42,528 nt of DNA, from contig VHCJ01000025.1 of NCBI GenBank assembly GCA_016871755.1, positions 1 to 42,528 on the forward strand, read 5' to 3'. Under the pieces are notes generated by a model. The model was not told where the DNA came from. It did not search any database and saw only the letters and a program-made list of their open reading frames with translations. The translations under genes were made by a program, and so were the position numbers. Below are positions 9,748-33,741 of this stretch, piece after piece. The DNA is from Verrucomicrobiota bacterium. Its GTDB lineage: Bacteria > Verrucomicrobiota > Verrucomicrobiia > Opitutales > Opitutaceae. How positions within the stretch are numbered: the stretch's first letter is position 1; every line of letters starts with the position of its first letter.

Positions 9748-9753
9748 CGCGCG

Positions 9754-11211: not shown

Positions 11212-11493
11212 TCATCCAGACGCTGCTCCCACTGCGGGCCAGCGCAAGAGCAAAAATGGGGGAACCGGGGATCGCCACCCGTCACCGGCGATCTCTCGGG
11301 ACGCTACGGGCGGCGGCCCCTTCGAACCCAGCTTCGCTGAAGGGACACCGGGCCTCCGCAAAGCGGGATGCGCTGGCCGGTCCCTGCCCAGTCCGCTCGG
11401 GGCTTGCCGCCCAACTCCCCATCGGTCAATGATGCCGGCGCTCCGAATCCGGATGCCGAGCGTCCGGCTCCCGACTTCGTCCCCTCTCGCATC
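11212..11493. other. Divergent intergenic interval
   Basis: This lies between the leftward propeller gene and the rightward heme-motif gene and should contain both promoters, although no convincing -35/-10 pair was found. A GC-rich inverted repeat with CCCTTC and GAAGGG arms and an inner AGC-TTC-GCT hairpin lies at 11318-11344. Its role is unknown. Confidence 0.3.
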
Positions 11494-12705
11494 ATGAGCG
11501 TGTCTCCGATCCGCCGGCTCCCTGCGTCGTTTGCGGGCTTCGGTCTGCTCCTGGCGCTCGCGGCCGCCCCAGTCTCGCTGCGGGCTGACGCCTATCCGGA
11601 GCCCAAGGCCCCGTCTCCGCAGTATCGGCATGGCGACATCGTGGTGCCGGAGTTCGTCGCGGATGAGCCCGTGCGCGCCGCGTGGTCGGCCGAGGCGGCG
11701 GAACACTTCCTCGATCGCGGCGCCCTCGCCTGGGCGCGGTCGAAGAGCTGCGTTTCCTGCCACACCACCGGCACCTACCTCGTCACCCGCCCGGCGCTCT
11801 CCGCCACCCTTGGCCGCCCGCGCGACGAGATCCGCAACGTCTTCGTCGAGCAACTCCGGGCCCGCCAAGGCACGCCGCGCGAACAGTTCGGCAAGGGCAC
11901 GCGCTCCGGCGAGGTCGTCTACATCGCCGCCGGCCTCGCCGAGTGGGACCGTTGGGTCAGCGGTCGCCTCTCGGCGGAGACGGCCGAGGCGCTCGAGTTG
12001 ATGTTCGCGATTCAGCTTCCGGGCGGCGACTGGTACAATCCGGGTTGCTGGCCGCCGCTGGAATCGGATGGCTTCCATCTCGCCACCCAAGCCGCCATGG
12101 CCGTCGCTGCGGTGCCCGCGTGGGAGGCGTCCGCCAGCTCACAGGCTCGGGCCGGCCTCGCCAAGCTGCGCGAGTTCCTCCGCACCACCCCGCCTCCGCA
12201 CGACTACGGCGGCACGCTGCTGCTGTGGGCGGCCGCGCGGATGCCGGACCTGCTGCCCGCGGATCGGCGGCAGCGCTTGGCCGAACGGATCTGGAGTCAG
12301 CAGCAGCCCGACGGCGGTTGGTCGATCCGGAGCTTCGCCGCACCGGAAGCGTGGGGTGATGGTTCCCGAGCGGAGCGCTTGCGCTCGGAACCCGACTTCG
12401 CCCGGCCGCCCAGCGACGGCCATCAAACCGGCCTCGCGATCGTCGTTCTGCGCGAATCGGGCGTCCCCGCCGACGACCCCCGCCTGCAGCGCGGCGTGGC
12501 ATGGCTGGAACGCAACCAGCGCGAGTCGGGCCGCTGGTGGACCCGTTCGCTGAACACCGACCGCGGCCACTTCGTCACCTACAGCGGCACCGCCTACCCA
12601 CTCCTCGCCCTCGCCCTGAGCGGGCGCGTCGACGCAACCACCGCCGCGCGGGACCCCGCGCGCGGCCAAGTTCTCGCCTTCAGCGAACCCGCCGCCGGGC
12701 GCTGA
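11494..12705 (+). CDS. Secreted terpenoid-cyclase-fold protein with a c-type heme motif
   Basis: The protein has 403 residues with a signal peptide (FAGFGLLLALAAAPVSLRA). Near residue 85 it has CVSCH, a covalent heme attachment motif, in SKSCVSCHTTGTYLVTRPAL. The rest has alpha-alpha barrel repeats of the prenyltransferase/squalene-oxidase type, for example IWSQQQPDGGWSIRSF and GVAWLERNQRESGRWWTRSL followed by SGTAYPLLAL. Such heme-tagged proteins occur in Verrucomicrobia and Planctomycetes in the periplasm; no reaction has been assigned to them and cyclase activity should not be assumed. The ATG at 11494 was chosen for the signal peptide. A small propeller protein gene follows after 20 bases, suggesting one transcript. 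Confidence 0.78.
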   Translation: MSVSPIRRLPASFAGFGLLLALAAAPVSLRADAYPEPKAPSPQYRHGDIVVPEFVADEPVRAAWSAEAAEHFLDRGALAWARSKSCVSCHTTGTYLVTRPALSATLGRPRDEIRNVFVEQLRARQGTPREQFGKGTRSGEVVYIAAGLAEWDRWVSGRLSAETAEALELMFAIQLPGGDWYNPGCWPPLESDGFHLATQAAMAVAAVPAWEASASSQARAGLAKLREFLRTTPPPHDYGGTLLLWAAARMPDLLPADRRQRLAERIWSQQQPDGGWSIRSFAAPEAWGDGSRAERLRSEPDFARPPSDGHQTGLAIVVLRESGVPADDPRLQRGVAWLERNQRESGRWWTRSLNTDRGHFVTYSGTAYPLLALALSGRVDATTAARDPARGQVLAFSEPAAGR

Positions 12706-19413: not shown

Positions 19414-20322
19414 TCAGGGAGGCGCGCCCAGCGAAACGAACGCCACCAACGCGTCCAGCTGAGCCGTCGTATAGTGCGGATGTGCCTCCATCTTGGCGGT
19501 CGGCACCATTCCCTTCGGATTCGTGACATACCGTCGGAAATAGTCCGGAGCGTAACGGGCCAGCGCGGCCAGCGCCGCGAAAGGACGGTCACCTTTCGTT
19601 CCACCGAAGGTATCCTCAGGTCCGCGATGACAACTGGTGCAGGAATGGATCCAAATCTCGCGTCCCTGGCTCACCAACTCGGCCGGCGCTGACCATGGTC
19701 CGCGATAAAGCGCGCCGAACGCACGCTCGGCGGGGGCGAAGTTGAGGGTCGTCACCCCCCACGGACGTTTGTGACCCGCATCGACCAGTTCGGCGACGGC
19801 GGGAACCACCGAGGCGGCCACGCTGATTACATAGGGGCCCGGGTTGAACCGGAGCCCGGGCGGGGGCCAATTTCCCGGCCCCTGTCCGTTGATTTCGAGG
19901 ATCAGGAACGGCCGGTAGTCGCGGATGAACGTGGTCGGATAGACCCCGGCGTAGCCATCGGTGCACGTCGCCAGCAGCGTGTCAGCATCCGGAAGGACGG
20001 GCAGCGCCGCCCAGAGATCGGAAAGGAAGACCACCGTCACCTCCTGCTCCCCCGGACCGAATTCGCCCGTGAGCTGGAGTTTCGCCTGCGGCAACCGCGC
20101 GACATCAGCCCAGCGAACGTAGCGCGTGACTCCAGGCTCAGCGCCGGCGAGCAGGCCCGTGACCGCAAGATCGAGAGTCGAAGCCCGGTCAGCATGAAGC
20201 GGCAACTCGGGGGCGTTGGCGCCTCGCACCAGAGAGGGCAGCGTCAAGGCCAGAGCGAGGGCGCACGCTCGCAACCCCGATGAACCCCCAGCGATCAAGA
20301 CCGTCATGGAGAGCTGGCGCAT
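19414..20322 (-). CDS. Exported mono-heme cytochrome c with an N-terminal beta domain
   Basis: From the ATG at 20322 the protein has 302 residues and a signal peptide (LRACALALALTLPSLVRGA). An upstream ATG at 20454, three bases after the preceding gene, would add 44 basic residues. The middle part (DLAVTGLLAGAEPGVTRYV to FLILEINGQGPGNWPP) resembles a molybdopterin-oxidoreductase-like beta domain without recognisable cofactor cysteines. The C-terminal third is a cytochrome c domain with IHSCTSCHRG as heme site and MVPTAKMEAHPHYT, where a methionine may be the second ligand. It would shuttle electrons in the periplasm. It is the last gene of the leftward operon carrying the FAD oxidase and Rieske genes, whose electron acceptor it may be. 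Confidence 0.75.
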   Translation of the reverse strand: MRQLSMTVLIAGGSSGLRACALALALTLPSLVRGANAPELPLHADRASTLDLAVTGLLAGAEPGVTRYVRWADVARLPQAKLQLTGEFGPGEQEVTVVFLSDLWAALPVLPDADTLLATCTDGYAGVYPTTFIRDYRPFLILEINGQGPGNWPPPGLRFNPGPYVISVAASVVPAVAELVDAGHKRPWGVTTLNFAPAERAFGALYRGPWSAPAELVSQGREIWIHSCTSCHRGPEDTFGGTKGDRPFAALAALARYAPDYFRRYVTNPKGMVPTAKMEAHPHYTTAQLDALVAFVSLGAPP

Positions 20323-20457
20323 GAGCGTCGACCCGATGAAAATCGTCCGTCGAGCAAACGCGGTGGGCGAAGGGTTCGAGCCAGAGTGCGATCTGAATCG
20401 ACGAAAACGCCCCACGAGGAATTTCCCAAACGACGGTAGAGGTGCCGCATTCATGGG

Positions 20458-21039
20458 TCAGGGCCGACGGATGATCTCGATGGCGCTGATCGCCGGATTC
20501 CCGGACTGACTCGCGAAGGTGATGGTCAACTCGCCATCGCGGACCTCCACCGGAACGGTCTCGACGTAGGCCTTTTGCACGCCACCGGCCTTGACGTAGA
20601 GATCGAAGTCGTTGACGGCGACACCCTCAACATCGTAGCTGAACACGCATTGGCTGGGTCCATCGATTCCTTCATAGGTGATCGCAAAGTGCAGCTTAAC
20701 CGTGTACCTGCCGTTCGAAACCTCCCGTACGAAACGGGTCATGCCAAACCGCTCCGAGCAATACACGGAGGGGATCCGGGTGGTCTCAATCTTGAGACCC
20801 GGACGACTCATCGTGTCACCGCCCGCAAAGCCGGAGGCGGGAAGCCACTTCCCGCCCGTCTCGTCGGTCAGCGGCTCCCAGAGGCCAGCCACGATGCGAA
20901 CCACGTCATCGGTCGGGGGAGCAGCACCCGTGGCTCCCGCGGCCGTGCCATCGGGAGCAGCGATCGGCAGCGTGAGAAGGATGAGGGCGACAAGGTTGAG
21001 ACGCAGCGAGGATCCGCGGAGCTTGGGGATGGCTTTCAT
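20458..21039 (-). CDS. Secreted malectin-like domain protein
   Basis: The protein has 193 residues with a signal peptide (LNLVALILLTLPIAAPDGTAAG). The rest is a single malectin-like beta-sandwich: VVRIVAGLWEPLTDETGGKWLP, split here as VRIVAGLWEPL and TGGKWLP, then VYCSERFGMTRFVREV, GRYTVKLHFAITYE, and the C-terminal strand SGNPAISAIEIIRRP. Malectin domains bind glucose-type sugars and are usually joined to enzymes or cytochromes; here the domain stands alone, six bases after the amidohydrolase gene and just before the cytochrome c gene. It may be a periplasmic carbohydrate-binding partner of that cytochrome. Confidence 0.8.
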   Translation of the reverse strand: MKAIPKLRGSSLRLNLVALILLTLPIAAPDGTAAGATGAAPPTDDVVRIVAGLWEPLTDETGGKWLPASGFAGGDTMSRPGLKIETTRIPSVYCSERFGMTRFVREVSNGRYTVKLHFAITYEGIDGPSQCVFSYDVEGVAVNDFDLYVKAGGVQKAYVETVPVEVRDGELTITFASQSGNPAISAIEIIRRP

Positions 21040-21045
21040 GGGAAA

Positions 21046-22179
21046 TCACGGCGACGGGGACGGCCTCGACGCGGACCCTGAATCCGCCGGTTCGGTCAAG
21101 CCGTAGAGCGTGGCCGCATTGTCATGAAAGATGCGCTGCTTCCATTCCTTCGGGAGGAACTGGAGGGTCATCCGCGGATTATCAAAGTCCCAGTGGGGAT
21201 AATCGCTGGAATACATGACGTTGCCCGGCGCGTTGATCATCTCGAGGATCTGCAGGAAGTGCTGGGGCTGCTCCGGTTCCTCGACGGGCTGCGTCGTCAC
21301 GAAGACATGATCGCGGATGTACTGGCTGGGAAGCTGACGCAGCCACGGCACCTCGGAACGCAGCGCCTTGTAGTTCTTGTCCATCCGCCACATCAGCTGG
21401 GGCAGCCACGCGAGGCCTCCCTCGACGGCGACGAACTTCAGCGGGGGGAACTTCTCGAAGGCACCCTCGCAGACGAGCGAGTTGACGTGTCCCATGAAAT
21501 TCAGCGGGACGATATTGTGCCATTCAAAGTATCGGGTCGGAGGCCCCGCCGGCGTCGGCGGGCCAGCAGTGCCGGCCCCCTCCGTTCCGGGATGCACTGC
21601 CACCGGCAGGTTGAACTCGCACGCGGCCTCGAAGATCGGATGAAAGAAGCGCTGCCCGAACAACCGGGACGAACCACTCGCCATCAACACCTGGACAAAA
21701 CGTTTGTCGGGTGCACAGCGCCGGATTTCGCGTGCGGCGGCCTCAGGGTCCGAGTGGTTCACCACGATCGAGCCGCGAAAGCGCGGCGACCGACTGAGCC
21801 AACGGTCAGCGAGATTGCGATTGTAGGCCGTCGCGAGCGCATTGCCCCAGTCGGGATCCGTGTGCACGGAAATCCCGAGCACGTGCGATCCGGTCAGGAT
21901 CGCGAAGTCGATCCCGAAGCGATCGAGGTGGTCGGCGATCATGAAGTCGGGATCACTGCCGGCCATGCCTCCGGAGGGGGTGCGCGCGTCCTGTCGCTGT
22001 ACACCGACTGACGAGTTGTAGCCGGTTCCCGGCATCACGATCCCGTGGTGGTCAGCATAGGCCTGCCAGGCCCGCGACAAATAGGGTTTAAGTTCCGCGC
22101 GCACATCCGCGAAGGCATTGTGCACATCGGTGTCGATGATGCTCGGTCGAGCGGAGACGGATGGGGTATCGTCCGGCAT
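21046..22179 (-). CDS. Amidohydrolase-2 family metal hydrolase or decarboxylase
   Basis: The protein has 377 residues with the TIM-barrel pattern of amidohydrolase_2 (ACMSD-like) proteins: IIDTDVHN at the start (DxH in place of HxH, common in this branch), VAVHPG with the barrel histidine, NSLVCEGAFEKFPPLKFVAVEGG and the metal-binding aspartate in MYSSDYPHWD. The family includes decarboxylases and hydrolases of ring-derived metabolites. It follows the Rieske gene by 11 bases and precedes the malectin gene by six. It is probably a ring-cleavage-product enzyme in the pathway of this operon. No signal peptide is present, so it is cytosolic. Confidence 0.88.
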   Translation of the reverse strand: MPDDTPSVSARPSIIDTDVHNAFADVRAELKPYLSRAWQAYADHHGIVMPGTGYNSSVGVQRQDARTPSGGMAGSDPDFMIADHLDRFGIDFAILTGSHVLGISVHTDPDWGNALATAYNRNLADRWLSRSPRFRGSIVVNHSDPEAAAREIRRCAPDKRFVQVLMASGSSRLFGQRFFHPIFEAACEFNLPVAVHPGTEGAGTAGPPTPAGPPTRYFEWHNIVPLNFMGHVNSLVCEGAFEKFPPLKFVAVEGGLAWLPQLMWRMDKNYKALRSEVPWLRQLPSQYIRDHVFVTTQPVEEPEQPQHFLQILEMINAPGNVMYSSDYPHWDFDNPRMTLQFLPKEWKQRIFHDNAATLYGLTEPADSGSASRPSPSP

Positions 22180-22718: not shown

Positions 22719-23750
22719 TCACTTGCCCTCCCGAACCGCCCTCACGTCCTCCGGCAGGAATTTCTCATCGAAGACGTCGGCGAGCGCCACGGCACGGTCC
22801 AGCACGCCGATCGCGGACAGCCGTTGGATCTCCGCGCCGAGGCGCGCCGGGTCGATCCGGCCGAGGAGTTCTCCCTTCGCCGGATCACCGTGCACGAGCC
22901 GATTGGCTCGCATCGCATCCACGCTGAAGGCGATGAACTCGGGCGTCATCTTTTGGTTCAGCTGGCTGATCCGCAGGTCGGCGTCTTGGCGATCGCCGTC
23001 GATGTACTCGCGCCAGCCACGGATCGACGCCGCCGTGAAGGCGCGCACCACCTCCGGGCGCCGCGCCGCGTAGTCGCGGCTCGTGAACCAGATGCGGTAA
23101 GGGTCAATGCCGGCCTCGGACAGGAGGAGGACCCCGACATCAACGCCTTGCTGGCGGATGTAAAAGGGCTCGTTCGTGACGAAGCACTGCTGGACGAGAC
23201 GCTTGTCGGCGAGGAACCGGCTCAGTCCGAAGTCGAGCGGCGTGACCGAAAGCTTGATCCCGAACTTGAGCTGGACGAGCGTCAGCCAAGCCGCCCCGGG
23301 CACCGCCATCACGTTGCGACCCTCAAGGTCCTTGAAGTCTCGGATGCCGGACTCCGGATGAAACATCACGCCTTGGGGATCGCGCTGCATGAGCGCCGCC
23401 AACGCGACCACGGGGATGCCTCGGCCCGCGGCGATGATTAACTCGTCCGTGCGTCCCACGGCAAACTGCGCGGTCCCGAGCGCCACCTTCTGGGTGGGGA
23501 TGGCGTTGGGCCCACCCTGCAGGATCTCCACGTCGAGACCCACGTCGCGGTAATAGCCCTCGACCAGGGCTTGGTAGAATCCGCCGTGCTCCGGCTGCGC
23601 GTACCAGTCCGTTTGCAGAATGATCTTTTCCAACTTCGCCGGCGCGGGACCAGGCGCCGCGGAGCGCTGCTCACCACAGCCGGAGAGAACGAGTGCTGCC
23701 AACGCGCCGAGGACGACCTGGGCGTAACGGGGGGTGCGTGAGGGAGTCAT
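22719..23750 (-). CDS. NMT1/SsuA-type ABC substrate-binding lipoprotein
   Basis: The protein has 343 residues. A lipoprotein signal (VVLGALAALVLSGC) predicts a lipid-anchored protein. The mature part has the NMT1/THI5-like fold: LEKIILQTDWYAQPEHGGFY, YYRDVGLDVEILQGGP, and GIPVVALAALMQRDPQGVMF. This group binds pyrimidine precursors, nitrate, taurine, sulfonates or other small compounds for NitT/TauT-type importers; the TDWYAQPEHGGFYQA start is close to the formylaminopyrimidine/THI5-like branch. Its ATG overlaps the permease stop by four bases, so the importer is translationally coupled. Together with the enzymes of the operon, this supports uptake of a small nitrogen-containing ring compound, but the ligand is not certain. 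Confidence 0.9.
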   Translation of the reverse strand: MTPSRTPRYAQVVLGALAALVLSGCGEQRSAAPGPAPAKLEKIILQTDWYAQPEHGGFYQALVEGYYRDVGLDVEILQGGPNAIPTQKVALGTAQFAVGRTDELIIAAGRGIPVVALAALMQRDPQGVMFHPESGIRDFKDLEGRNVMAVPGAAWLTLVQLKFGIKLSVTPLDFGLSRFLADKRLVQQCFVTNEPFYIRQQGVDVGVLLLSEAGIDPYRIWFTSRDYAARRPEVVRAFTAASIRGWREYIDGDRQDADLRISQLNQKMTPEFIAFSVDAMRANRLVHGDPAKGELLGRIDPARLGAEIQRLSAIGVLDRAVALADVFDEKFLPEDVRAVREGK

Positions 23751-24544
23751 TCTTTTTTGACCATTGAATCGTGCCACAGGTGAAGCAGGCGCCAGTGCAG
23801 CCAATTGACCCCGCCGACGAAGACGAAACCCATCACGCACGCGACCAGACCGGTCGCGAAGAGAGCGGGCGTCTTGAGCTGCGAGAAGTACGAGATTGTC
23901 ATGTAGCCGATTCCCCCCACCCCGCCCTGTGCGCTGCCGGCAAGGAAATCGCCGACGATCGCTCCGATGGGCGCCAGCGTGCCGGCGATCTTCATGCCGG
24001 TGAGGAAATACGGCATGGCCCCGGGAATCCGCAGGTAGCGCGCCTCCTGCGCCCGGGTGGCGTTGCACATGACGAACAGCTCCCGGAGATTCCGGTCGAC
24101 GGAGATGAAACCCATCGTGGTATTCGCCACGACCGGGAAGAAACCGATCATGAAGGTGATCGCGACGATGCTTGGCAGCCCCTGCCCCAGCCACAGGACG
24201 AAGATGGGGGCGAGGATGGTGACGGGCATCATCTGCAGCACGAGGATCAGCGGATAGAGCGATGCCTTGACGCGCGGCGAGAATCCGAGCGCCATGGCCA
24301 GAAGGAAGCCGACCCCCACCGCGGCGGAAAACCCGAGCAGCGCGCCGCGGACGGTGACGAGCGCCGCCGGCCAGAGAAACGACCGCTCCTCCCATGCGGC
24401 CACGAGAATCTCGTGGGGAGCCGGGAGAACGAAGGACGGCACCTGAAAGACCGCCTTGAGCACGTACCAGAGGACGATCAGCGCCGCCGCAGTGGCTGCG
24501 GGCAGCAGATAGGTGCTGAGACGAGAGCGGAGGGAGGGGCTCAT
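23747..24544 (-). CDS. ABC transporter permease (NitT/TauT type)
   Basis: The protein has 265 residues with six or so transmembrane segments and the binding-protein-dependent permease signature: MMPVTILAPIFVLWLGQGLPS, shown here as PVTILAPIFVLWLGQG, then the EAA-like loop ATRAQEARYLRIPGAMPYFL, which contacts the ATPase, and LAPIGAIVGDFLAG. The start LLPAATAAALIVLWYVLKA is the first membrane helix. The ATG at 24544 lies four bases after the ATPase stop; an earlier in-frame ATG would run antisense-like through the ATPase end. It forms the importer together with the adjoining ATPase and lipoprotein. Confidence 0.92.
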   Translation of the reverse strand: MSPSLRSRLSTYLLPAATAAALIVLWYVLKAVFQVPSFVLPAPHEILVAAWEERSFLWPAALVTVRGALLGFSAAVGVGFLLAMALGFSPRVKASLYPLILVLQMMPVTILAPIFVLWLGQGLPSIVAITFMIGFFPVVANTTMGFISVDRNLRELFVMCNATRAQEARYLRIPGAMPYFLTGMKIAGTLAPIGAIVGDFLAGSAQGGVGGIGYMTISYFSQLKTPALFATGLVACVMGFVFVGGVNWLHWRLLHLWHDSMVKKE

Positions 24545-24548: not shown

Positions 24549-25310
24549 TCAGGAACGGACGGCGCGCAGCGCTTGCGCGGTCGTGGCCAGCAGACGCAGG
24601 AACGCCGGGGTCTCCCGCAATTCCGGCTGCCGCGGATAGGGAAACGGAACATCAATCACCGCCGTGACGCGACCGGGATTCACCCCCAGCACCACGATCC
24701 GCGAGGAAAGGAAGACCGCCTCGGCAACCGAGTGCGTGACGAAGAAACCCGTGAAGGAGTTGCGGCTGCGAATCGCGAGCAAGTCCTCGTTCAGCCGGTC
24801 GCGCGTCATTTCGTCCAGCGCCCCGAAGGGTTCATCGAGCAGGAGAATCTCCGGCGCCACGGTCAGCGCCCGCGCAATCGAAACCCGCATTCTCATTCCG
24901 CCGGAGAGCTGCCAGGGAAACTTCTCCGCCGCACCCGACAGCCCCACGACCTCAAGCATCCGGGCGACGCGCTCGCGGCGGTGCCCGGGCGCGTCCCCGC
25001 GCAGCAGCAGCGGCAGCTCCACGTTCTCCGCCACCCGGCGCCACGGCATGAGCGTGGCGTCTTGAAAGACGAAGAACATCTTCTCCCGCGCCTTCTCGGG
25101 CGGCGTTCCATCGACCGTGATCAGGCCGTCGCTGGCGGACGTGAGGCCCGCAATCAGACGAAGGAGGGTCGACTTGCCGCAGCCGCTGGGTCCGATGAAA
25201 CTGACGAACTCCCCCTGGCCCACTTCCAAGTTGATGCCATCCAGCACGAGGGGACCCGCGCCAAAGCGCTTTTGCAGCCCGCGGATCGCAACTAGGGGAG
25301 CAGCGTTCAT
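24549..25310 (-). CDS. ABC transporter ATP-binding protein (NitT/TauT type)
   Basis: From the ATG at 25310 the protein has 253 residues; a GTG at 25337, overlapping the oxidase stop as GTGA, would add nine. Motifs are Walker A GPSGCGKSTLLRL, Q-loop VFQDATLMPW, signature LSGGMRMRVSIARAL, Walker B ILLLDEPFGALDE and the switch histidine in FVTHSVAEAVFLS. The sequence is typical of TauB/SsuB-like ATPases powering import of small organic compounds. It sits between the FAD oxidase and permease genes with almost no spacing. Confidence 0.93.
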   Translation of the reverse strand: MNAAPLVAIRGLQKRFGAGPLVLDGINLEVGQGEFVSFIGPSGCGKSTLLRLIAGLTSASDGLITVDGTPPEKAREKMFFVFQDATLMPWRRVAENVELPLLLRGDAPGHRRERVARMLEVVGLSGAAEKFPWQLSGGMRMRVSIARALTVAPEILLLDEPFGALDEMTRDRLNEDLLAIRSRNSFTGFFVTHSVAEAVFLSSRIVVLGVNPGRVTAVIDVPFPYPRQPELRETPAFLRLLATTAQALRAVRS

Positions 25311-25333
25311 CCCTCGACTTTCGTGCTGAGACG

Positions 25334-26749
25334 TCACCTCAAGGTGGCGGGCTCGAACGGATTGTGCGGGAAGGATTTCATCTTCCCCGGGTTCAGCAGC
25401 CCGGCGGGGTCCACTTCGGCCTTCAACGCCCGCTTCTCCGCGATGTTCGGATGCCGCCCTCCCTCCTCCAGGAAGAAGGTGTGGGGATTGGCGATACCCA
25501 CTCCGATCTCACCGCAAACCCGGATGATCTCCTGCAGGCGTTCTTCCGACTTGAAAAAGACCAACGGAATCCCTCCGACGACGACGTGGCTGCCGCCACC
25601 GCTCGAACCACCGGCGCCGCCCGCCACGAACTTGATGCCACCCGCCATCCACTCGAGGTGGAAGAGGATCTCACCGGGAAAACGGCGGTGCAGTTCCGCG
25701 AACTGCTCACGGAAATTGGTCCCGAATCCGGACTGGAGGTAGGTGATGGAGGGATCAGTCTTCAGCGCCCACAGCGTGGTGTGATTCCACGTGTAGTCCG
25801 TGATGAAGGGAGGTCTCGGCGGATCCGACAGCGGCTGACGGTAGACGCAGGCCAGTCCCGCCGCCGCGGCCGAGGCGACCACCGCATCCGCCTGATCGCG
25901 AGCCACGAGGAGAAAGGAGACGTGCTCGCCGGTCTTGAGATGCTTCGCCAGCGGCTTGAAGTACGAGGGAATGGGCCACTCAAACTGGGTGACGAGCCGC
26001 TTGTGCCAACCGTCGTTCCGAGCCGCGCCGTCGCTCCAATCCAAGAGGCGATCCCAGTCGGACGAACTGAGGATCAGCTGCTCATAGTCGGCTTTGGGCG
26101 CGAGTCGCATCTCGACCTCGACCATGAAACCCGTGGTGCCGTAGGTGTGGAGCGCCCGGATCGAGTCGCGCTCCTCCAGTCGAATCAGCCGCGGCTCCTC
26201 CTCGCAGGTCATCAGCGTGACCGACTTGACGTTGTCACCGGCGTTGATGCCGCCCCAGGTGATGGATCCGATGCCACCGGATCCGCCGCAGAAGAAGCCT
26301 CCAATCGTGCTCTTGACCCACGTCGACGGAATGCACCGCAACTCCCACCCCGCCGCCCGGGCCACGGTCTCAATCGCCCCGAGCCGCGCTCCCGCCTCGG
26401 CCCGCACCACCCCGCCGTCCACCGAGTGGATGCGATCGAGTCGGGCGAAGTCGACGACCACGCCGCCATAAAGCGGAACGCACTGGCCGTAGTTCCCCGT
26501 GCCCGCACCCCGTGGCACAATCGGCACCCCGAGTCGAAAGCAGGCCTTGATGACCGCCCGCAACTCGTCGATCGAACCCGGGCGGACCGCCAGGTCGGCC
26601 CGCTTGTCATTCAACTGGCGCTGCAGGACCGGGGAATACCAGAAAAAATCCTTCGAGAGCCCCTCCAGCGCCTCACCACCATCGATCACATGTTGAGCGC
26701 CAAGCAGGACGCGCAACTCGGCAAGCAGGGATTCGGGAAGAGCGGTCAT
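25334..26749 (-). CDS. FAD-dependent oxidase/dehydrogenase (GlcD/VAO type)
   Basis: The protein has 471 residues. The N-terminal PCMH-type FAD domain shows ADLAVRPGSIDELRAVIKAC, PIVPRGAGTGNYGQCVPLYG, and STIGGFFCGGSGGIGSITWG, the pyrophosphate-binding region. The C-terminal part ends with DPAGLLNPGKMKSFP, typical of the FAD-oxidase C-terminal domain. Members oxidise hydroxyacids, aromatic alcohols or amines with transfer to O2, cytochromes or ETF. There is no signal peptide. As first gene of the leftward operon, with its ATG about 180 bases from the LacI-type palindrome, it probably catalyses an oxidation step on the imported compound. The gene has no obvious defects. Confidence 0.88.
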   Translation of the reverse strand: MTALPESLLAELRVLLGAQHVIDGGEALEGLSKDFFWYSPVLQRQLNDKRADLAVRPGSIDELRAVIKACFRLGVPIVPRGAGTGNYGQCVPLYGGVVVDFARLDRIHSVDGGVVRAEAGARLGAIETVARAAGWELRCIPSTWVKSTIGGFFCGGSGGIGSITWGGINAGDNVKSVTLMTCEEEPRLIRLEERDSIRALHTYGTTGFMVEVEMRLAPKADYEQLILSSSDWDRLLDWSDGAARNDGWHKRLVTQFEWPIPSYFKPLAKHLKTGEHVSFLLVARDQADAVVASAAAAGLACVYRQPLSDPPRPPFITDYTWNHTTLWALKTDPSITYLQSGFGTNFREQFAELHRRFPGEILFHLEWMAGGIKFVAGGAGGSSGGGSHVVVGGIPLVFFKSEERLQEIIRVCGEIGVGIANPHTFFLEEGGRHPNIAEKRALKAEVDPAGLLNPGKMKSFPHNPFEPATLR

Positions 26750-27014
26750 GAGGACGGTGTGTCGGAGGACTGAGGTTCCAAGAAAGAGAAATCATTAACC
26801 GCACGTCTGATGCCAAAACTCAAAATCCTTCTGAAAACCCGGAGGAATTGCGGAGACGACAGTACGACAGCGACTTTGATCGGAGTGCTTGTCCAAAAGC
26901 GATGGAAAGCGGAAAAGTGAAGACTGTACAAAAACGTTTTTGTCAAGCAGCCTTCCGCCGCTCAATCTTAGCTACGATCGACGGCGTGGCATTCGCGCTG
27001 CTACACTCACCCCA
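26750..27014. promoter_or_regulatory. Divergent control region of the catabolic module
   Basis: This 265-base interval separates the leftward FAD-oxidase/ABC operon from the rightward deaminase operon. It is richer in A and T than its surroundings and contains the perfect 16-base palindrome at 26928-26943. On the minus strand TTGACA (26946-26941) overlaps the palindrome and is a candidate -35 element for the leftward operon; no good -10 was seen at 17 bases. No small gene is supported here. Confidence 0.55.
26928..26943. promoter_or_regulatory. LacI-type operator, perfect palindrome
   Basis: ACAAAAACGTTTTTGT is an exact 16-base palindrome with the central CG typical of LacI/GalR-family sites. 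It lies between the divergent catabolic operons, 87 bases before the deaminase ATG. A near-identical copy upstream of the lacI gene (32600-32615) also shares flanking bases (GTCAAGCA), which argues against chance. Confidence 0.7.
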
Positions 27015-28313
27015 ATGCTCATTGTCCGCCGCGCCCGCGTTCCCGTTTCCTTGCTTCCGGTTCGTCCGGTCGGCGCGCAGATCGACGCGTTGGAACCGGC
27101 GGTGCTCTGCGACCTCGCCATTGATGGGGACCGGATCGCGGCCGTCGTTCCGGGTGGGCAACTCGACTCCCACCCCGCCGCCCGGGAATTCGACGCGGGC
27201 GGTTCACTGGTGTTTCCCGGCTTCGTCGACGCCCACGTTCACCTAGACAAGACCCATACGTGGCATCGTGCGCCCAACCGGTCCGGCACCTTCATGGGCG
27301 CGCTGCAGGCCTTGGCGGACGACAAGGTGCACTGGAGCGAAGCCGATCTGCATCGTCGCGCCGGCTTCGCCCTGCGCTGCGCGTGGGCACACGGTACGCG
27401 GGCGATCCGGACGCATGTCGACACCGGTCCGGAATGGGGTGAGCGCAGTCACGCCGTGATGGCGGCGCTGCGGAGGGAGTGGGCCGGTCGCATCACTCTG
27501 CAAGCCGTCCCGCTCTGCGGCGGCAGCGACTACCTCTCGGCCGCCGGCGAAAGGCTGGCGGACCTCGCGCTGCGCCACGGCGCCAGCGCGCTGGGAGGGT
27601 TTCTCATCATGTCCGGCGAACTGCCCGCCCAGCTGGACCGGATGCTCGCCATCGCGTTCGAGCGCGGCGTCGGGGTCGATCTGCACGTGGACGAAAGCGG
27701 CAACCCACAGGCGGAATGCCTCCGGCTGGTGGCCGAGGCCGTGTTGCGGGCGGGTTTCAGTCTGCCCGTGGTGTGCGGTCATTGCTGCAGCCTGGCGGTT
27801 CAGGATCACGCCCGCGCCCAGTCCACGATCGCGCTGGTCCGGGAGGCGCGCATCGGCATCATCTCATTGCCGGAATGCAATCTCTACCTCCAGGATCGAC
27901 GGGGCGCCGACGCACCCTTTCCCCGCACCCCGCTCTGGCGCGGGATCACGCTGGTGCATGACCTCATGGATGCTGGAATCCCCGTCGCCTGCGCCAGCGA
28001 CAACGTGCGCGACGCCTTGCACGCGTTCGGCGACTACAACCTCGCGGAGGTGTACGCGCAAAGCGTGCGACTCGCTCATCTCGATGCGCGTCTGGAGGAC
28101 TCCGTTCGCGTCGTCACCCGCACCGCGGCGGATCTGATCGGTCTTCCCGACCGAGGCCGGATCGCGCCGGGGGCGGCGGCGCACTTGGTCGTGCTCGAGG
28201 CCCACCGCTTCAGCGAACTCCTGAGTCGCCCTAGTGCCTCCCCCCTCTGCATCGACGCGGAGGAGATTCACCGTCCATCGGTCCCCCCCTTCGCCGAGCT
28301 CAACGATCGTTAA
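27015..28313 (+). CDS. Cytosine-deaminase-like metal-dependent amidohydrolase
   Basis: The protein has 432 residues. It matches the CodA branch of the amidohydrolase superfamily: His74-x-His76 in DAHVHLDKTH, His224 and Glu227 in LHVDESG, His256 in CGHCCSL and the metal/catalytic Asp329 in ASDNVRDAL. A C-terminal strand IAPGAAAHLVVLEAH completes the small beta domain. This branch deaminates or opens cytosine, isocytosine, creatinine and related rings, so the substrate cannot be given from sequence. The ATG at 27015 is preferred; an ATG at 26889 would run through the operator. It leads the rightward operon with DUF2165, RidA and creatininase genes 12 to 40 bases apart or overlapping. Confidence 0.87.
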   Translation: MLIVRRARVPVSLLPVRPVGAQIDALEPAVLCDLAIDGDRIAAVVPGGQLDSHPAAREFDAGGSLVFPGFVDAHVHLDKTHTWHRAPNRSGTFMGALQALADDKVHWSEADLHRRAGFALRCAWAHGTRAIRTHVDTGPEWGERSHAVMAALRREWAGRITLQAVPLCGGSDYLSAAGERLADLALRHGASALGGFLIMSGELPAQLDRMLAIAFERGVGVDLHVDESGNPQAECLRLVAEAVLRAGFSLPVVCGHCCSLAVQDHARAQSTIALVREARIGIISLPECNLYLQDRRGADAPFPRTPLWRGITLVHDLMDAGIPVACASDNVRDALHAFGDYNLAEVYAQSVRLAHLDARLEDSVRVVTRTAADLIGLPDRGRIAPGAAAHLVVLEAHRFSELLSRPSASPLCIDAEEIHRPSVPPFAELNDR

Positions 28314-28325
28314 CCCCCTCCGCCC

Positions 28326-28820
28326 ATGCTCACCCGTCTCGCCAAGATTTCACTGGTGGCTTCCGCAGCCTTGTTCCTGCTGATTGTCGTCTTCAATAAC
28401 CTCACCGACTACGGTTCGAACTTCGAGTTCGTGCGACACGTGCTTTCCATGGACACGACCTTCCCGGGCAACCGCGGGATGTGGCGCGCGATGACCTCGC
28501 CGATCATCCATCACATCTTCTACGCCCTGATCATCGTCTGGGAGTGGGTGGCCGGAGTCATGCTGGCGGTTGCCGCGGGTCGCATGTGGAATGCGCGCGC
28601 CCAGTCGACGGACGCTTGGCGCAAAGCGACCTCCCTTGCCGTGGCGGGCCTCACGGTGAGCCTTCTCCAGTGGTTGATCGCCTTCATCATCGTCGGCGGC
28701 GAATGGTTTCTCATGTGGCAGTCGACCACCTGGAACGGGCAAACCGCCGCGGCCCGGATGTTCGTCGTCTTTGCCCTGATCTTGATCTTTCTGAATCAGC
28801 GCGACGACGAGGTTGCCTGA
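28326..28820 (+). CDS. DUF2165 small membrane protein
   Basis: The protein has 164 residues with four transmembrane segments, the first being ISLVASAALFLLIVVFNNLTD. The FNNLTDYGSNFEFVRHVLSMD loop, shown here as NFEFVRHVLSMD, and FIIVGGEWFLMWQS are the conserved parts of DUF2165. Its function is unknown; the conserved polar residues next to membrane helices could bind a ligand or cofactor. It lies 12 bases after the deaminase gene, so a link with the pathway, for instance in transport or membrane redox, is inferred from position only. Confidence 0.82.
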   Translation: MLTRLAKISLVASAALFLLIVVFNNLTDYGSNFEFVRHVLSMDTTFPGNRGMWRAMTSPIIHHIFYALIIVWEWVAGVMLAVAAGRMWNARAQSTDAWRKATSLAVAGLTVSLLQWLIAFIIVGGEWFLMWQSTTWNGQTAAARMFVVFALILIFLNQRDDEVA

Positions 28821-28857
28821 CGACGCGATTCATTCAGCCGACCCGACACGCTCCACC

Positions 28858-29256
28858 ATGCTGAAGAAGACCCTCGTCTACCCCACCGGTTTCGCCAAGC
28901 CTCGCGGCGCCTACAGCCCTGGCATCCTGCTGGAGACGGCGGGGGTGAAAACGCTGTACGCGACCGGGCAACTCGCAGTTGACCCCTCTGGCAACGTCAT
29001 CTCCCCCGGCGACGCGACCGAGCAGAGCGAGTACGTTTTCAAGTTGCTGGGCGAAATTCTCCAAGCGGCAGGAATGACGTTTGATCACGTCGTGCGCGCG
29101 CAGACCTACCTCACGAACATGGACGATTTCCCCCGGTTCTCGGAGGTGCGCAACCGGTACCTCGGAGGATCCATGGCCGCGAGCACCCTCATCGAAGTCA
29201 AGGGACTCGCCCGCCCCGGCTGCTGCGTGGAGATCGAAATCACCGCCGTCGCATGA
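28858..29256 (+). CDS. RidA-family (YjgF/YER057c/UK114) protein
   Basis: The protein has 132 residues. Family landmarks are AYSPGILLE near the start (the active-site loop), YATGQLAVDPSGNV, QAAGMTFDHVVRAQTYLTNM, and the C-terminal ARPGCCVEIEITAVA, in which the usual arginine of the R-P-x-A/G-x-V-E-I-E motif is present. RidA proteins hydrolyse reactive enamine/imine intermediates; several paralogues act inside pyrimidine and other nitrogen-compound pathways. The ATG at 28858 fits the family start. Its stop overlaps the start of the next gene (ATGA), giving tight coupling to the creatininase-like protein. Confidence 0.92.
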   Translation: MLKKTLVYPTGFAKPRGAYSPGILLETAGVKTLYATGQLAVDPSGNVISPGDATEQSEYVFKLLGEILQAAGMTFDHVVRAQTYLTNMDDFPRFSEVRNRYLGGSMAASTLIEVKGLARPGCCVEIEITAVA

Positions 29257-30026
29257 GCACGCCCGCCCCTGTCACGCCGCTCTGCATTGCCGACGACACG
29301 ACCTTCTGGCCGTGGCATCGCTGGCCCGAGTTTCACCGCTGGCCCGATCGCGAGCGCACCCTCGTCGTCGTTCCTCTGGCCGGCAGCGCCGACTGGGGTC
29401 TCGGCCATCCCCTGGACGCCGAGGAGACCGTGCTGATGAGCGTGCTGCGCGAAGCGTCCTTGCAACGGCCCGCTCATCTCAAGTTGCTGGTGCTGCCGCC
29501 GGTGCGATTTGTGCTCGGGCCGGATGCCGGCTGCGCGTTCGCCGTGGATCCGCCCCTCGCCCACGGCCTCTTGGCGGAGCTTCTCGCCTCCGTCTCGGCC
29601 TCTGGATTTAGGAAAGTTGTTCTGTACAACTCCAGCCCTTGGAATGAGGAGCTCATCGCCGCCGTCGCGCGCGACAACCGCATTGCGTTGGGCCTGCAGA
29701 TCTTCCGCATCAGCCTCAGCGGACTGGGTCTCGACCTCCACCCGACGCGCAGCCAGTCCCGCAGCCAGTTTCAGACCCTCGTTACCGCCCTGACTGGCCG
29801 CGAGCCCGAGGCCGCCGGAGTGGGCGCAACCGCTCAGGCCATGCGCGGCTGGGGTGACGAGTCGGTACGGCCGCTCTTGGATCCCCCATTGCCAGTCGCG
29901 GCCGCGCGTGCCGCAGGGACACCGCTCCTTGCCGCAGCAGCCGGAAAACTGCTCCGGCTGCTGGGCGAGATCGATGCCCGCGCTCCCCTCGCCAACGGGG
30001 GCAAGATCCTTCCCGCCCAGATCTGA
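29253..30026 (+). CDS. Creatininase-fold protein lacking the metal ligands
   Basis: The protein has 257 residues. Its overall pattern follows creatininase, but the key sites are altered. The stretch GSADWGLGHPLD (44-55) stands where active members have G-[ST]-x-E-Q-H-G-x-H-L-P, and NSSPWNEE (126-133) stands where they have N-x-H-G-G-N. The first metal-binding Glu and His and the His of the second motif are therefore missing; LDAEE retains a possible Asp. It is followed 13 bases later by a full creatininase with all ligands. The likely reading is a non-catalytic or re-purposed partner subunit. I rate the fold assignment as good but not certain. Confidence 0.65.
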   Translation: MSTPAPVTPLCIADDTTFWPWHRWPEFHRWPDRERTLVVVPLAGSADWGLGHPLDAEETVLMSVLREASLQRPAHLKLLVLPPVRFVLGPDAGCAFAVDPPLAHGLLAELLASVSASGFRKVVLYNSSPWNEELIAAVARDNRIALGLQIFRISLSGLGLDLHPTRSQSRSQFQTLVTALTGREPEAAGVGATAQAMRGWGDESVRPLLDPPLPVAAARAAGTPLLAAAAGKLLRLLGEIDARAPLANGGKILPAQI

Positions 30027-30039
30027 GGGTGCTGCCACC

Positions 30040-30852
30040 ATGAGTTCGAACCCCCTCCCGCCTTTCCCCTCCTACCGGTCGCGCTACCTGACCGCCATGA
30101 CACCGCGCGAGATCGCGGGTCTTCCCGACAAGGCCTGGGCTCCGGTGATCATCGTCACCGGCGCGATCGAGCAGCACGGACCACACCTCCCCGTGGCCGT
30201 CGACTCCTTCCTTGGCCAAGTCTGGCTGGAGAGAGCGCTTCCCCTGTTGGCCAGCGACACACCCTGCTACGTCGCTCCCCCCATCACCGTCGGCAAGAGC
30301 AATGAGCACACGGGGTTTCCCGGAACGCTTTCGATCTCAAAGGATACCCTGCGCAGACTCCTCCTCGCGCAGGCGCGCCAGCTTGGCGCGTGGGGTTTCC
30401 GCCATGTCGCGATCATCAACACGCATGGGGGAAACTCGGCCGTGATCACCTACACCCTTCGCGAAATCTCGGCCACGCTGGGCCTCCGTTGCGGAATGCT
30501 CGCCCCGAAGGTCGATCACGGTTTGGGCGCGCAGGAACTGACCTACGGCTACCATGCCAATACGGTGGAAACCGCCCTGATGCAGGCTGAGGCCGGACGC
30601 TACGTCGACATGGCATTGGCCGTGAGTGAGTACTGCGGTCAGGTCGAGTCGTCAGGAGACCTCCGCCCCGAGCGCGCGCCCGCCACGATGGCGTGGATCA
30701 CCTCTGATCTCTCCCGCACCGGCGTGATGGGTGACGCCCTCGCCGGCACCGCGGACAAAGGGCACCTGTGGCGCGACCAGATCGCGTCAGCCTACGCCGC
30801 CGCCATCACCGACCTGGCCCGCGCCGCCAAAGCCGACGCACCGCCCGCTTGA
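30040..30852 (+). CDS. Creatininase-family amidohydrolase
   Basis: The protein has 270 residues. The two-metal site is complete: Glu44, His46 and His49 in GAIEQHGPHLPVAVD with Asp55, His129 in INTHGGN, and Glu177 in YHANTVETALM. Also typical is GKSNEHTGFPGTLSIS, which carries the substrate lid region. Creatininase-family enzymes open amide rings (creatinine to creatine) or hydrolyse formamides, as in the deazaflavin pathway. Being last in the operon behind the deaminase-like enzyme and RidA suggests a ring or amide hydrolysis step of the same pathway. True creatinine use is not shown; no creatinase or sarcosine oxidase is nearby. Confidence 0.9.
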   Translation: MSSNPLPPFPSYRSRYLTAMTPREIAGLPDKAWAPVIIVTGAIEQHGPHLPVAVDSFLGQVWLERALPLLASDTPCYVAPPITVGKSNEHTGFPGTLSISKDTLRRLLLAQARQLGAWGFRHVAIINTHGGNSAVITYTLREISATLGLRCGMLAPKVDHGLGAQELTYGYHANTVETALMQAEAGRYVDMALAVSEYCGQVESSGDLRPERAPATMAWITSDLSRTGVMGDALAGTADKGHLWRDQIASAYAAAITDLARAAKADAPPA

Positions 30853-30917
30853 TCGGCGCCTCGTCGTGGCGGAGACACGTTCTCCCGCCCGCCGAAAGTC
30901 CGCCGCGCCACTCCGCG

Positions 30918-32237
30918 TCAAAACGCGTCCGGATTGCGCTGAAAGTCGAGGGCCAAGGCGGCGCTCCACGAAAACTCATCGGTGCCGAGGCCAAGCGCTG
31001 ATGGGTCGATGCCGGGCCGCGGGTCAAAGTATTCCCAGCGCCCCGCAGCGCCAAGGACCCGCAGCGTGTCGGACCGCACGCGTTCGGCCAGATCGTCCAA
31101 GCCGGCCTGGCGCAGGCCATGATGGAGCATCCAGTTCACATTCACCCAGACGGGGCCGCGCCAGTATCTGACCGGGTCAAACGTCGGCTCGTCCGTCGCC
31201 ACGGAAGGACAAAGCAGCCAGTCCGCGCTCGGCGCGAACGAGGACGTAAGGTGACGGGCCAGCGCCCGCTGCTGCGCGTCATCGCAGACTCGGGCGAACA
31301 GAGGCATGAAGCCGGAGGAGGTCTTGATTTCGATCCGGCGATCCGCGCGGAGGTCGTACGGAAAGTAGAAGCCCCGCTCGGCATCCCAGAATTTCCGGTT
31401 GATTGCGGCGGACGTCTTTTCACACCACCCCTCGATTTCGCCCACCGTTGCCGCATCGGCGTTCAGGTCGCGCGCCAGCGAAAGCAGCGCAAGGTTCGAA
31501 CGCGCCAACACGGCGTTGAAGAGCACATCCTGGATCAGGAACGGGGAACGTTCCGCAATCTCCGCGTCCCGGTAGCCACACGCATTGAAGAGATCAACCA
31601 ACGCCAGACAGCGGCGATAGTTGACGTCGGTGGGACGGTGGGCGGCCGCGACCGTCTGGTTGTCGCGCCGCAGGCCCGAGACGTCCCGCGCCCGCGTCAG
31701 GTCGATTGCCTCCAGCGCCGCATCGTAAACGGGAGAATTGTCGGTCCCGGCCTCCCAGTTGTGCTGAATGTAGACCAAGCCTTCGCCGAGGGGATCGCGG
31801 TTCCGGTAGAGGTGACGATGTTGGGCCACCAGTGACGGAAAAATCTCGCGCCGGAATGCCTCCCACTCCGACGTCCGCCCCAGGGGCAGCGAAGAAATCC
31901 GTTCGACAATGAAGGCGAAGACCGGCGGCTGGGTAATCCCCGACGTGCGAACCCCGGCGGGCCGCCACGGGACCTGATCCGTGCCCCACGCGTCAGGGCC
32001 GGGAAAGTAGTTGTCGGCCGGACGGTGAAACACGATGTGCGGCACCATCCCATTGCGCCACTGCCCGCGGAACACGCTGCGGAGCTCCGAAATGGCGCGT
32101 TCAGGCCGAACGTACGCCAGACCGAGCGCGATGAATCCGGCGTCCCAATTCCACTGAAAGGGATACAGGCGCGGCGACGGCAGGGTGTAGCCGTCGCGCC
32201 AGTTGCGATCGAGCGTGGCAGTGGCAGCGGCGAACAT
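30918..32237 (-). CDS. GH63-like (trehalase/mannosylglycerate hydrolase type) glycosidase
   Basis: The protein has 439 residues with an alpha-alpha barrel pattern similar to GH63-related mannosylglycerate and glucosylglycerate hydrolases: RLYPFQWNWDAGFIALGLAY near the start, shown as FQWNWDAGFIALG, then VYIQHNWEAGTDNSPVYDAA with the probable catalytic aspartate in GTDNSP, RGPVWVNVNWMLHHGL, and GTDEFSWSAALALDF at the end. No signal peptide is seen, so it is cytosolic and would act on imported small glycosides or compatible solutes. It is transcribed away from the lacI gene, and its upstream interval carries the second LacI-type palindrome, so it may belong to the same regulon as the catabolic module. 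Confidence 0.82.
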   Translation of the reverse strand: MFAAATATLDRNWRDGYTLPSPRLYPFQWNWDAGFIALGLAYVRPERAISELRSVFRGQWRNGMVPHIVFHRPADNYFPGPDAWGTDQVPWRPAGVRTSGITQPPVFAFIVERISSLPLGRTSEWEAFRREIFPSLVAQHRHLYRNRDPLGEGLVYIQHNWEAGTDNSPVYDAALEAIDLTRARDVSGLRRDNQTVAAAHRPTDVNYRRCLALVDLFNACGYRDAEIAERSPFLIQDVLFNAVLARSNLALLSLARDLNADAATVGEIEGWCEKTSAAINRKFWDAERGFYFPYDLRADRRIEIKTSSGFMPLFARVCDDAQQRALARHLTSSFAPSADWLLCPSVATDEPTFDPVRYWRGPVWVNVNWMLHHGLRQAGLDDLAERVRSDTLRVLGAAGRWEYFDPRPGIDPSALGLGTDEFSWSAALALDFQRNPDAF

Positions 32238-32253
32238 GGCGGGAGACGTGACG

Positions 32254-32268
32254 CAAACTAATTGTTTG
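32254..32268. promoter_or_regulatory. Inverted repeat upstream of the GH63-like gene
   Basis: CAAAC-TAATT-GTTTG has five-base arms around an AT-rich centre, 17 bases upstream of the glycosidase ATG on the minus strand. It could be a regulator site or an element of the transcript leader. It resembles the LacI-type site only loosely and lacks the central CG. Confidence 0.3.
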
Positions 32269-32599
32269 AGCTGGCGCTGACGCGCGCCCGGTTCAACTCA
32301 GGGCATCCACGACTGATCCGCAGCGCGATGCAGGAACGCGCGGCGGTCGACCCTTTCGGAACCCGATTTCGCGCTCTTTTCCACCCGCTGCTCCGTTGCC
32401 GGGCATCATCTCGGAACGTCCCGGATCCAACGGAAAGGATGCGCGGAGGGGACCACGGGCAGCACGAGAGTTCGGTCGAACCAGAAAAGCACACAGCGAG
32501 GTAGTTTTTGGCGCTCGCGCGCCGCTCCCAAGACAAGGCCCCTGCCGGCGCGGCAAGAACTGGGAAAACCGGCACGGAAGCCGCGGAGATGAAGGCTAG

Positions 32600-32615
32600 A
32601 CAGAAACGTTTTTGT
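32600..32615. promoter_or_regulatory. LacI-type operator, near-palindrome
   Basis: ACAGAAACGTTTTTGT differs from the perfect palindrome at 26928-26943 by one base. It lies 91 bases before the lacI start and far upstream of the GH63-like gene. Bases on both sides are also shared with the other copy: GTCAAGCA to the right, and CTTCA in the minus-strand reading. Autoregulation of lacI and control of the glycosidase are inferred. Confidence 0.65.
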
Positions 32616-32706
32616 CAAGCAACGTCTCCGACCGGCAACTCGCGGATTTGGTCATGGGTTCTTTACCCGCCCCGTGTTTCCGGTATTCGGAGATTCCTCT
32701 CGTATC

Positions 32707-33741
32707 ATGTCGATCGTGCTCCTCGCCAAGGATCTCGGCCTGTCGATCTCAACGGTGTCGCGCGCGCTCAATGGCTACGAAGACGTTTCCGCCGCGACGC
32801 GCGAGCGAGTCATCCAGCGCGCCAAGGCCATTGGGTACCGGCCCAACCCCAGCGCGCGGCGTCTCGGCGCGGGCAAGACATCGGCCATCGGGGTCATCCT
32901 GCCCGCGGCCGGCAGCACGGGGCAGGCCGTTGACTCGATGTATTCAAGCCTGCTCGGCGGCGTGGTGACCGAGATCGAGCCCGCCGGTTACCACCTCCTC
33001 GCCTCAATGCAGGCAAAGCACGACGCCGCCCGCGAGGCCGCGCTTTTCGAGAACTTCATCCGCGGAGGCTGGGTCGACGCGCTGCTGATCGTGCGCACGC
33101 GGGTACACGACGCACGTCTCGAACTCGCTCGCGCGGCAAAAATGCCCTTCGTCACGTACGGACGGACGGAATCGGACCAACCCTACGCCTGGGTCGACAC
33201 GGACAACGAAAAAGCGTTTCATCTCGCGACGACCCGGCTGCTCGATCTCGGGCACCGACGGATCGCGCTGATCAACGGACCCGACGAGTACTCGTTCGCC
33301 CAGTTCCGCCGCCGGGGCTACCTTCGGGCGCTCGCGAGCCGCAAGTTGAAGCCGGATCCAGCGTGGATTCTCCACGGTGAGTTGACGGAGACCGCCGGGC
33401 ACGAACTCTGCCGCTCGCTCCTGATTCGTCGCCCCGCGCCCACCGCCTTCGTCTGCGCGACCGATTCCATGGCCTTCGGTGCGATCGCGGCCTGCCGGGA
33501 GGCGGGTCTGGCAATTGGTACGGACGTCTCCGTCATCGGCTACGGGAACTCCAGCCTTTCGGCGTTCTGCGACCCTCCGCTCACCACCATGGAGCATCAG
33601 GTTTTCGAGAATGGTCGGTACGTGGGACGCGCCCTGCTCCAGTTGCTCCGCAAGGAGATCGAGCCGGCGGAGGTCCACTACCTTGAACCCGTGGTTCTCG
33701 TACCACGCAAGTCCGACGGCCCCGCACCGCTGGAGGCGTGA
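32707..33741 (+). CDS. LacI/GalR-family transcriptional regulator
   Basis: The protein has 344 residues. The helix-turn-helix LLAKDLGLSISTVSRALNGY with hinge helix NPSARRLGAGKTSAIG is classical; the periplasmic-binding-like core follows (VWVDTDN-like YAWVDTDNEKAFHLATTRL, then LGHRRIALINGPDEYSFAQ, split here, and CATDSMAFGAIAACREAG). The ATG at 32707 places the HTH at the very N-terminus, as in the family. Ligands are usually sugars or nucleosides. A near-palindromic site upstream of its own gene is repeated as a perfect one between the divergent catabolic operons, so it probably represses both sets in the absence of inducer. Confidence 0.93.
   Translation: MSIVLLAKDLGLSISTVSRALNGYEDVSAATRERVIQRAKAIGYRPNPSARRLGAGKTSAIGVILPAAGSTGQAVDSMYSSLLGGVVTEIEPAGYHLLASMQAKHDAAREAALFENFIRGGWVDALLIVRTRVHDARLELARAAKMPFVTYGRTESDQPYAWVDTDNEKAFHLATTRLLDLGHRRIALINGPDEYSFAQFRRRGYLRALASRKLKPDPAWILHGELTETAGHELCRSLLIRRPAPTAFVCATDSMAFGAIAACREAGLAIGTDVSVIGYGNSSLSAFCDPPLTTMEHQVFENGRYVGRALLQLLRKEIEPAEVHYLEPVVLVPRKSDGPAPLEA

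Follow-up and report, generated by a model that had tools for sequence, protein, structure and literature searches.

The 16-base palindrome which recurs in two intergenic regions of the window (the whole stretch of DNA analysed, 42,528 nucleotides) is very probably the operator of the LacI-family protein encoded at 32707-33741. Judging from sequence comparison, this protein would act at three places in the genome, controlling lacI itself, the adjoining glycosidase gene, the catabolic gene rows and a receptor gene on contig C6, and the units joined in this way would have moved between genera. The window is contig 25 of the genome under study (G000), and the finding gives an Opitutaceae-type lineage, known here from MAGs, an operator and a regulon that are concrete enough to be tested. 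It also ties a nitrogen-catabolic module to a regulator whose ligand is amenable to screening; the deaminase of the module has a relative in 40 of the 252 genomes of the family. A search of open-licence papers, as far as their titles and the beginnings of their abstracts go, returned nothing on this regulon, which would be a new one of a kind already known. The features of the window are compiled in Table 1.

Table 1 Genes and putative operators of the window
Feature	Position	Strand	Remarks
Cytochrome c-type protein	19414..20454	-	Beside the module also in G124, G263 and G103
Malectin-domain protein	20458..21039	-	Beside the module also in G124, G263 and G103
Amidohydrolase (Amidohydro_2)	21046..22179	-	
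NMT1/THI5-like substrate-binding protein	22719..24395	-	558 aa; match at residues 267-465
ABC transporter ATPase, taurine/nitrate type	24549..25337	-	
FAD-linked (GlcD-type) oxidoreductase	25334..26749	-	First gene of the divergent row
Operator 1 (putative), 22 bp	26925..26946	.	Core 26928-26943; between the divergent FAD-oxidase and cytosine-deaminase-like genes
Cytosine-deaminase-like amidohydrolase	27015..28313	+	NCBIfam PRK07583, 467 bits (cut-off 403); ATG at 27015
DUF2165 membrane protein	28326..28820	+	
RidA-family protein	28813..29256	+	
Creatininase-family protein 1	29253..30026	+	Weak match, 32.5 bits (cut-off 31.3)
Creatininase-family protein 2	30040..30852	+	Open frame begins at 29854; ATG at 30040 is the likely start
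Glycosidase, glucosylglycerate/mannosylglycerate hydrolase type (MGH1-like)	30918..32237	-	
Operator 2 (putative), 22 bp	32597..32618	.	Core 32600-32615; between glycosidase and lacI
LacI-family regulator	32707..33741	+	344 aa; Pfam LacI and Peripla_BP_3; aligned with 9 orthologues

Putative operator sites and their architecture

The original prediction had placed ACAAAAACGTTTTTGT at 26928-26943 and a second copy, ACAGAAACGTTTTTGT, at 32600-32615. Both are found there, 5672 bases apart; the shared flank GTCAAGCA reaches into each core from the right, with the minus strand reading TTGACA there, and the ATG of lacI at 32707 follows the second site by 91 bases. Allowing up to 3 mismatches, the window holds these two palindromes and no more, while 100 shuffled windows gave a mean of 0.03 sites and not a single shuffle with two. 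The genome-wide motif scan, which had been proposed as a check, bore out the rarity of the palindrome: the whole assembly (3.67 Mb, 144 contigs) contains three sites at 0-1 mismatch, none at 2 mismatches and two at 3 mismatches (one each on contigs C35 and C67), and the reversed pattern, used as a control, gave 0 sites. The third strong site lies outside the window, with a perfect core at C6:32967-32982, and forms a perfect 18-bp palindrome. All three 0-1 mismatch sites adjoin genes that sit together in relatives.

Relative to the genes, the centre of operator 1 lies about 80 bp before the ATG of the cytosine-deaminase-like gene and that of operator 2 at -99 from the lacI ATG; the centre of the C6 site is found 351 bp before the receptor ATG, beyond the -140 to -30 range given as usual for LacI-family operators in the accessible text of the family survey (PMC4052901). 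The consensus of 11 sites, TTGACAAAAACGTTTTTGTCAA, represents an extended operator form with CG at the centre in most sites and CC/GG at the lacI-near site of G136, G004, G006 and G007. The bases that the two window sites share beyond the core, GTCAAGCA with TTGACA, correspond to the outer operator arm plus flank; the minus-strand TTGACA is present at both sites as described, and the best reading of it is that of an outer arm in an operator of 22 bp. In the six module genomes the main site of each intergenic region is bordered by GCTTGACA, and so are the C6 site and, in G113, the site near lacI.

Several relatives contain paired operators: a second one (0-4 mismatches) is located 104-121 bp farther from lacI in G263, G103, G113, G007, G004 and G006, and at the deaminase gene a second one with 2-4 mismatches stands 109-112 bp from the first in G026, G136, G263 and G103. 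No second operator is recognisable in G000; to the eye, the stretches where it would be expected there have the look of decayed sequence. Over the 10 intergenic regions concerned (six at lacI, four at the deaminase gene), the spacings of 104-121 bp follow no strict helical phase, and two divergent promoters with one operator apiece explain the pairs as well as DNA looping does. As a separate observation, TGGCATCAGACGTGC at 26801-26815 of the window (minus strand), about 52 bp before the FAD-oxidase start and partly kept in the upstream alignment, resembles the consensus of a sigma-54 (-24/-12) promoter.

Association with the LacI-family regulator

By its domains the regulator belongs to the LacI family (PF00356 at 41 bits, cut-off 27; PF13377 at 115 bits), and its recognition region reads SISTVSRALNG. 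At a threshold of E <= 1e-70, orthologues were found in 10 of the 252 family genomes, namely G000, six genomes at 86-95% identity and three at 62-65%; in a search of 57 relatives, the next-best proteins after the orthologues stood at 36% identity. The recognition stretch SISTVSRALNGY is invariant in all 10 orthologues. Each of the 10 genomes, which are not independent but represent about three lineages (the module, apparently passed on by transfer, is common to six of them, and three others make up a separate clade), carries the palindrome at 0-1 mismatch upstream of lacI, centred 95-155 bp away, and shows the typical picture of a LacI-family operator: an even palindrome, usually with central CG, near the gene of its own regulator. 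Its form also agrees with the LacI-family motif rules given in the accessible parts of PMC4052901 and PMC2978694.

No palindrome at 0-1 mismatch was found in any of the 46 scanned genomes lacking a LacI orthologue (two batches, 16 and 30), some of which are incomplete MAGs (64-78% in G210, G058 and G002). Among these 46 are all 34 genomes that have the deaminase but no LacI orthologue (30 in the second batch; G001, G002, G009 and G014 in the first), the deaminase threshold of E <= 1e-60 being passed in 40 of the 252 family genomes, 6 of them with LacI; these 34, too, contain 0 sites at 0-1 mismatch. Sites with exactly 2 mismatches number 33 in the 46 genomes (15 and 18) and are exceeded by the 55 (28 and 27) which the reversed control yielded there at up to 2 mismatches; in LacI-positive genomes, two such sites occur in G026 and one in G113, all on other contigs. 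The comparison of upstream regions in relatives, likewise suggested beforehand, showed that conservation of the core bases far exceeds that of the remaining sequence in either intergenic region, with 16 of 16 columns of the operator 1 core invariant against 76 of the 214 remaining ones (six aligned genomes), and 14 of 16 columns of the operator 2 core against 30 of 214 (seven aligned genomes, the lacI-side alignment leaving out G004, G006 and G007).

Alternative explanations

Other readings of the shared sequence have to be weighed against the same data. A chance repeat, for which no favourable point was found, can be rejected for all practical purposes: the window shuffles (0.03 sites expected per window) and the assembly scan (three sites, 0 reversed controls) speak against it, as does the conservation across genomes. 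Scarcely more credible is promoter DNA with TTGACA as its -35 element. Most of the 11 sites do carry this hexamer at one edge or at both, yet at the G000 and G026 sites the best -10 candidates 15-19 bp away differ from TATAAT at 3 or more positions in all nine readings, so that a sigma-70 arrangement of -35 and -10 hexamers 15-19 bp apart was not found at these sites and TTGACA was rejected there as a promoter element; moreover, a promoter would account neither for the two-fold symmetry around a central CG nor for the site's dependence on LacI. That another LacI paralogue, or a different regulator, binds the palindrome might be supposed from the 12 LacI-type HTH matches in G000 and from a second LacI gene near the orthologue in G007 and G004. 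We regard it as very unlikely, since the site tracks the orthologue of the neighbouring LacI (10 of 10 genomes with it, 0 of 46 without) and since SISTVSRALNGY occurs in this protein alone and in 0 of the 11 other matches in G000.

Less far-fetched, and still improbable, is the view that the site between lacI and the glycosidase alone is functional, the catabolic and C6 sites having been carried along when promoter DNA was duplicated or transferred. Operator 1 and the C6 site indeed look like copies (33 of 36 bases identical), the C6 site is distant from its receptor gene, and the module exists in other genomes without a LacI orthologue or a 0-1 mismatch operator. On the other hand, operator 1 has all 16 core bases unchanged in six genomes in which other columns are kept at 76 of 214 only, and four of these six carry the second, 2-4 mismatch operator 109-112 bp away.

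Genes under predicted control

Rightward from operator 1 follow the deaminase-like amidohydrolase, the DUF2165 protein, RidA and the two creatininase-family proteins, and leftward the FAD oxidase, the ABC ATPase, the NMT1-like binding protein and the amidohydrolase; both rows are predicted operons. Going by its model score (467 against a cut-off of 403 bits), the first of these proteins would be a member of the cytosine deaminase family PRK07583 (NF005759). The open frames of the two creatininase-family genes (29253-30852) overlap, and the second gene probably starts at 30040.

The glycosidase had been labelled "GH63-like", which can be sharpened: it scores 330 bits with Pfam MGH1-like_GH and 19.7 with the GH63 model, under the cut-off of 22.4. 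It matches the Thermus mannosylglycerate hydrolase (PDB 2z07) at 4e-92 and the mycobacterial glucosylglycerate hydrolase (PDB 5ohc) at 5e-61. For the latter, the catalytic Asp182 and Glu419 as well as the substrate-contact residues are named in the accessible text of PMC6608630; 13 of the 14 active-site residues checked from this list are kept in the window enzyme, both catalytic ones included (D166 and E402), and mycobacterial Q434 is replaced by F, as it is in the Thermus enzyme. With 355 bits against a cut-off of 550 for the glucosylglycerate hydrolase equivalog NF047898, the protein stands outside the equivalog, though by its residues it may work like a glucosylglycerate hydrolase. The related glycosidase of G007 differs from the mycobacterial and Thermus enzymes in being fused to a GH65 protein, and G004 and G006 contain open frames of similar size. 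At L060:12242-15889 we noted a 1215-aa fusion of GH65 and MGH1-like hydrolase, adjoining a LacI orthologue and an SSF symporter.

Proposed regulon and its ligand

A small regulon of lacI, the glycosidase and the divergent catabolic operons had been proposed. The tie of the operator to the neighbouring lacI, which joins these genes, is upheld by the co-occurrence (10 of 10 against 0 of 46) and by the conservation; the proposal proved too small, as the C6 receptor carries a third site. In the mechanism we favour, a LacI dimer would bind TTGACAAAAACGTTTTTGTCAA between glycosidase and lacI, thereby regulating its own gene and, divergently, the glycosidase; it would likewise bind in the interval that separates the divergent catabolic rows and, on C6, upstream of the TonB-dependent receptor, most likely repressing all these targets. 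The operator would be freed by a ligand of the sugar type (glucosylglycerate or mannosylglycerate, perhaps, or a product), whereupon outer-membrane uptake, ABC transport, the glycosidase and the breakdown of a nitrogen compound could start jointly. In the part of the RegPrecise-based family survey accessible to us, carbohydrate metabolism is the target in 96% of the LacI groups with an assigned pathway, a carbohydrate is the effector in 96% of those to which an effector is assigned, and 72% of the regulators are autoregulated (PMC4052901), which makes a repressor with a sugar-type ligand the most likely case.

As far as the same text describes them, local autoregulated LacI sugar regulons (PMC4052901) resemble the present one in the even palindrome with central CG, in sites beside the gene of their own regulator, in glycosidase and transporter targets and in the usual upstream range, within which two of the three sites fall; the difference lies in the present targets, among which are a nitrogen-catabolic module and a receptor encoded on a different contig. 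The best NCBIfam match of the window LacI is CytR, which would suit a nucleoside-like ligand, at 172 bits; the cut-off of the CytR equivalog PRK11041 is 436, and for PurR the score is 141 against 501. CytR and PurR respond to nucleosides or nucleobases, whereas the glycosidase linked here resembles glucosylglycerate/mannosylglycerate hydrolases and not nucleosidases. An inducer common to glycosidase and nitrogen module, as originally suggested, is plausible; the examples given for it, a nucleoside-like or sugar-conjugated substrate, are conjectural. Since the glycosidase has residues of the glucosylglycerate/mannosylglycerate type and the module occurs elsewhere with neither this glycosidase nor LacI nearby and with no palindrome at 0-1 mismatch, a single compound for both activities is not implied, though glycosidase and deaminase may both act on one compound.

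Apparently joined units and their probable transfer

A full or partial module together with LacI and glycosidase is present in G000, G026, G124, G136, G263 (on two contigs) and G103. G113, G007, G004 and G006 have LacI and glycosidase without module genes within the stretch read, and a search at E <= 1e-60 found no deaminase in any of the four; an SSF symporter gene lies nearby in all of them, the genes at this place in G113 including receptor, glycosidase, SSF symporter and PQQ dehydrogenase. At L082, L087 and L088 there are module genes, with neither LacI nor glycosidase within the stretch read (some contigs being short), and the same holds for a more distant, partial module at L083 and L084. 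No palindrome was found at up to 4 mismatches in L082, L083 and L084, and none at 0-1 mismatch in G140 and G142, the genomes of L087 and L088. Because LacI-glycosidase units and the nitrogen module are also found apart, two units seem to have merged under one operator; this looks like a clear case of separately occurring gene units joined in this way, with a receptor gene carrying an operator copy elsewhere. Of eight named records, one bears the label Akkermansia and the other seven Opitutae, Opitutus or Opitutaceae; the names of two point to ponds as their origin, and a freshwater source of the others is our guess.

LacI of G000 shares 92-95% identity with its orthologues in G026, G124, G136, G263 and G103. 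In the same five comparisons CarA reaches 76-81% and RecD2 64-70% (RecD2 was not found in G136), while the near relatives G003 and G005 show 95% for CarA and 92-95% for RecD2 and contain neither LacI (E <= 1e-70) nor the deaminase gene (E <= 1e-60). The identity of LacI, well above the 64-81% of the housekeeping proteins, and its absence in G003 and G005 favour horizontal transfer; measured against the two housekeeping proteins compared, this suggests that the LacI unit has moved across genera. A clean empty site for the whole module was sought in G005 via the right-hand flank, where no clean junction was found: the PTE, Beta-lactamase and SBP genes have relatives there, though rearranged, and within the 40 kb read no deaminase, GH, LacI, FAD, ABC or NMT1 gene was found. 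G003 gave no PTE match.

Receptor on contig C6

The C6 site precedes a TonB-dependent receptor gene, in whose product the Plug domain was matched and the barrel model was not. In G026, G136, G263 and G103 the receptor, with site, is situated between the deaminase gene and the FAD oxidase, and the C6 receptor is 80-83% identical to these module receptors; a second G000 receptor, on C5, shares 41% identity with it. Receptor and operator on C6 lie in a 3.1-kb segment (L018 about 8829-11958) missing from G003 and G005, the flanks abutting exactly in G003 and within 16 bases in G005; no receptor match at E <= 1e-60 was obtained in G003, G005 or G124. The absence of this segment together with the attached operator copy marks receptor and operator as a separate cassette, and its insertion is more parsimonious than a loss, the direction of the event being our deduction.

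As to origin, a LacI-glycosidase unit and an independent nitrogen-catabolic module would have come under one operator and moved between genera, the receptor ending up apart with an operator copy still attached. One may go further and, quite tentatively, imagine that a sensor of a sugar-acid osmolyte of the glucosylglycerate type, inherited with the glycosidase, took over an unrelated nitrogen-heterocycle module and the receptor by operator capture, the unit moving between genera and the receptor cassette relocating yet staying wired in trans. If this were true, a carbon osmolyte of neighbouring organisms would be the cue to scavenge a nitrogen compound from the same source.

Two minor observations concern receptor surroundings. 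At L075:4283-4555, before the receptor, the beginning of the FAD oxidase is present in a second, incomplete copy (52.7%, 91 aa), possibly a scar of receptor insertion or of duplication. On C6, a TPP riboswitch (L018:8657-8770, minus strand, 59.2 bits) stands ahead of a further TonB-dependent receptor, probably one for thiamine, whose gene runs divergently from that of the receptor with the operator.
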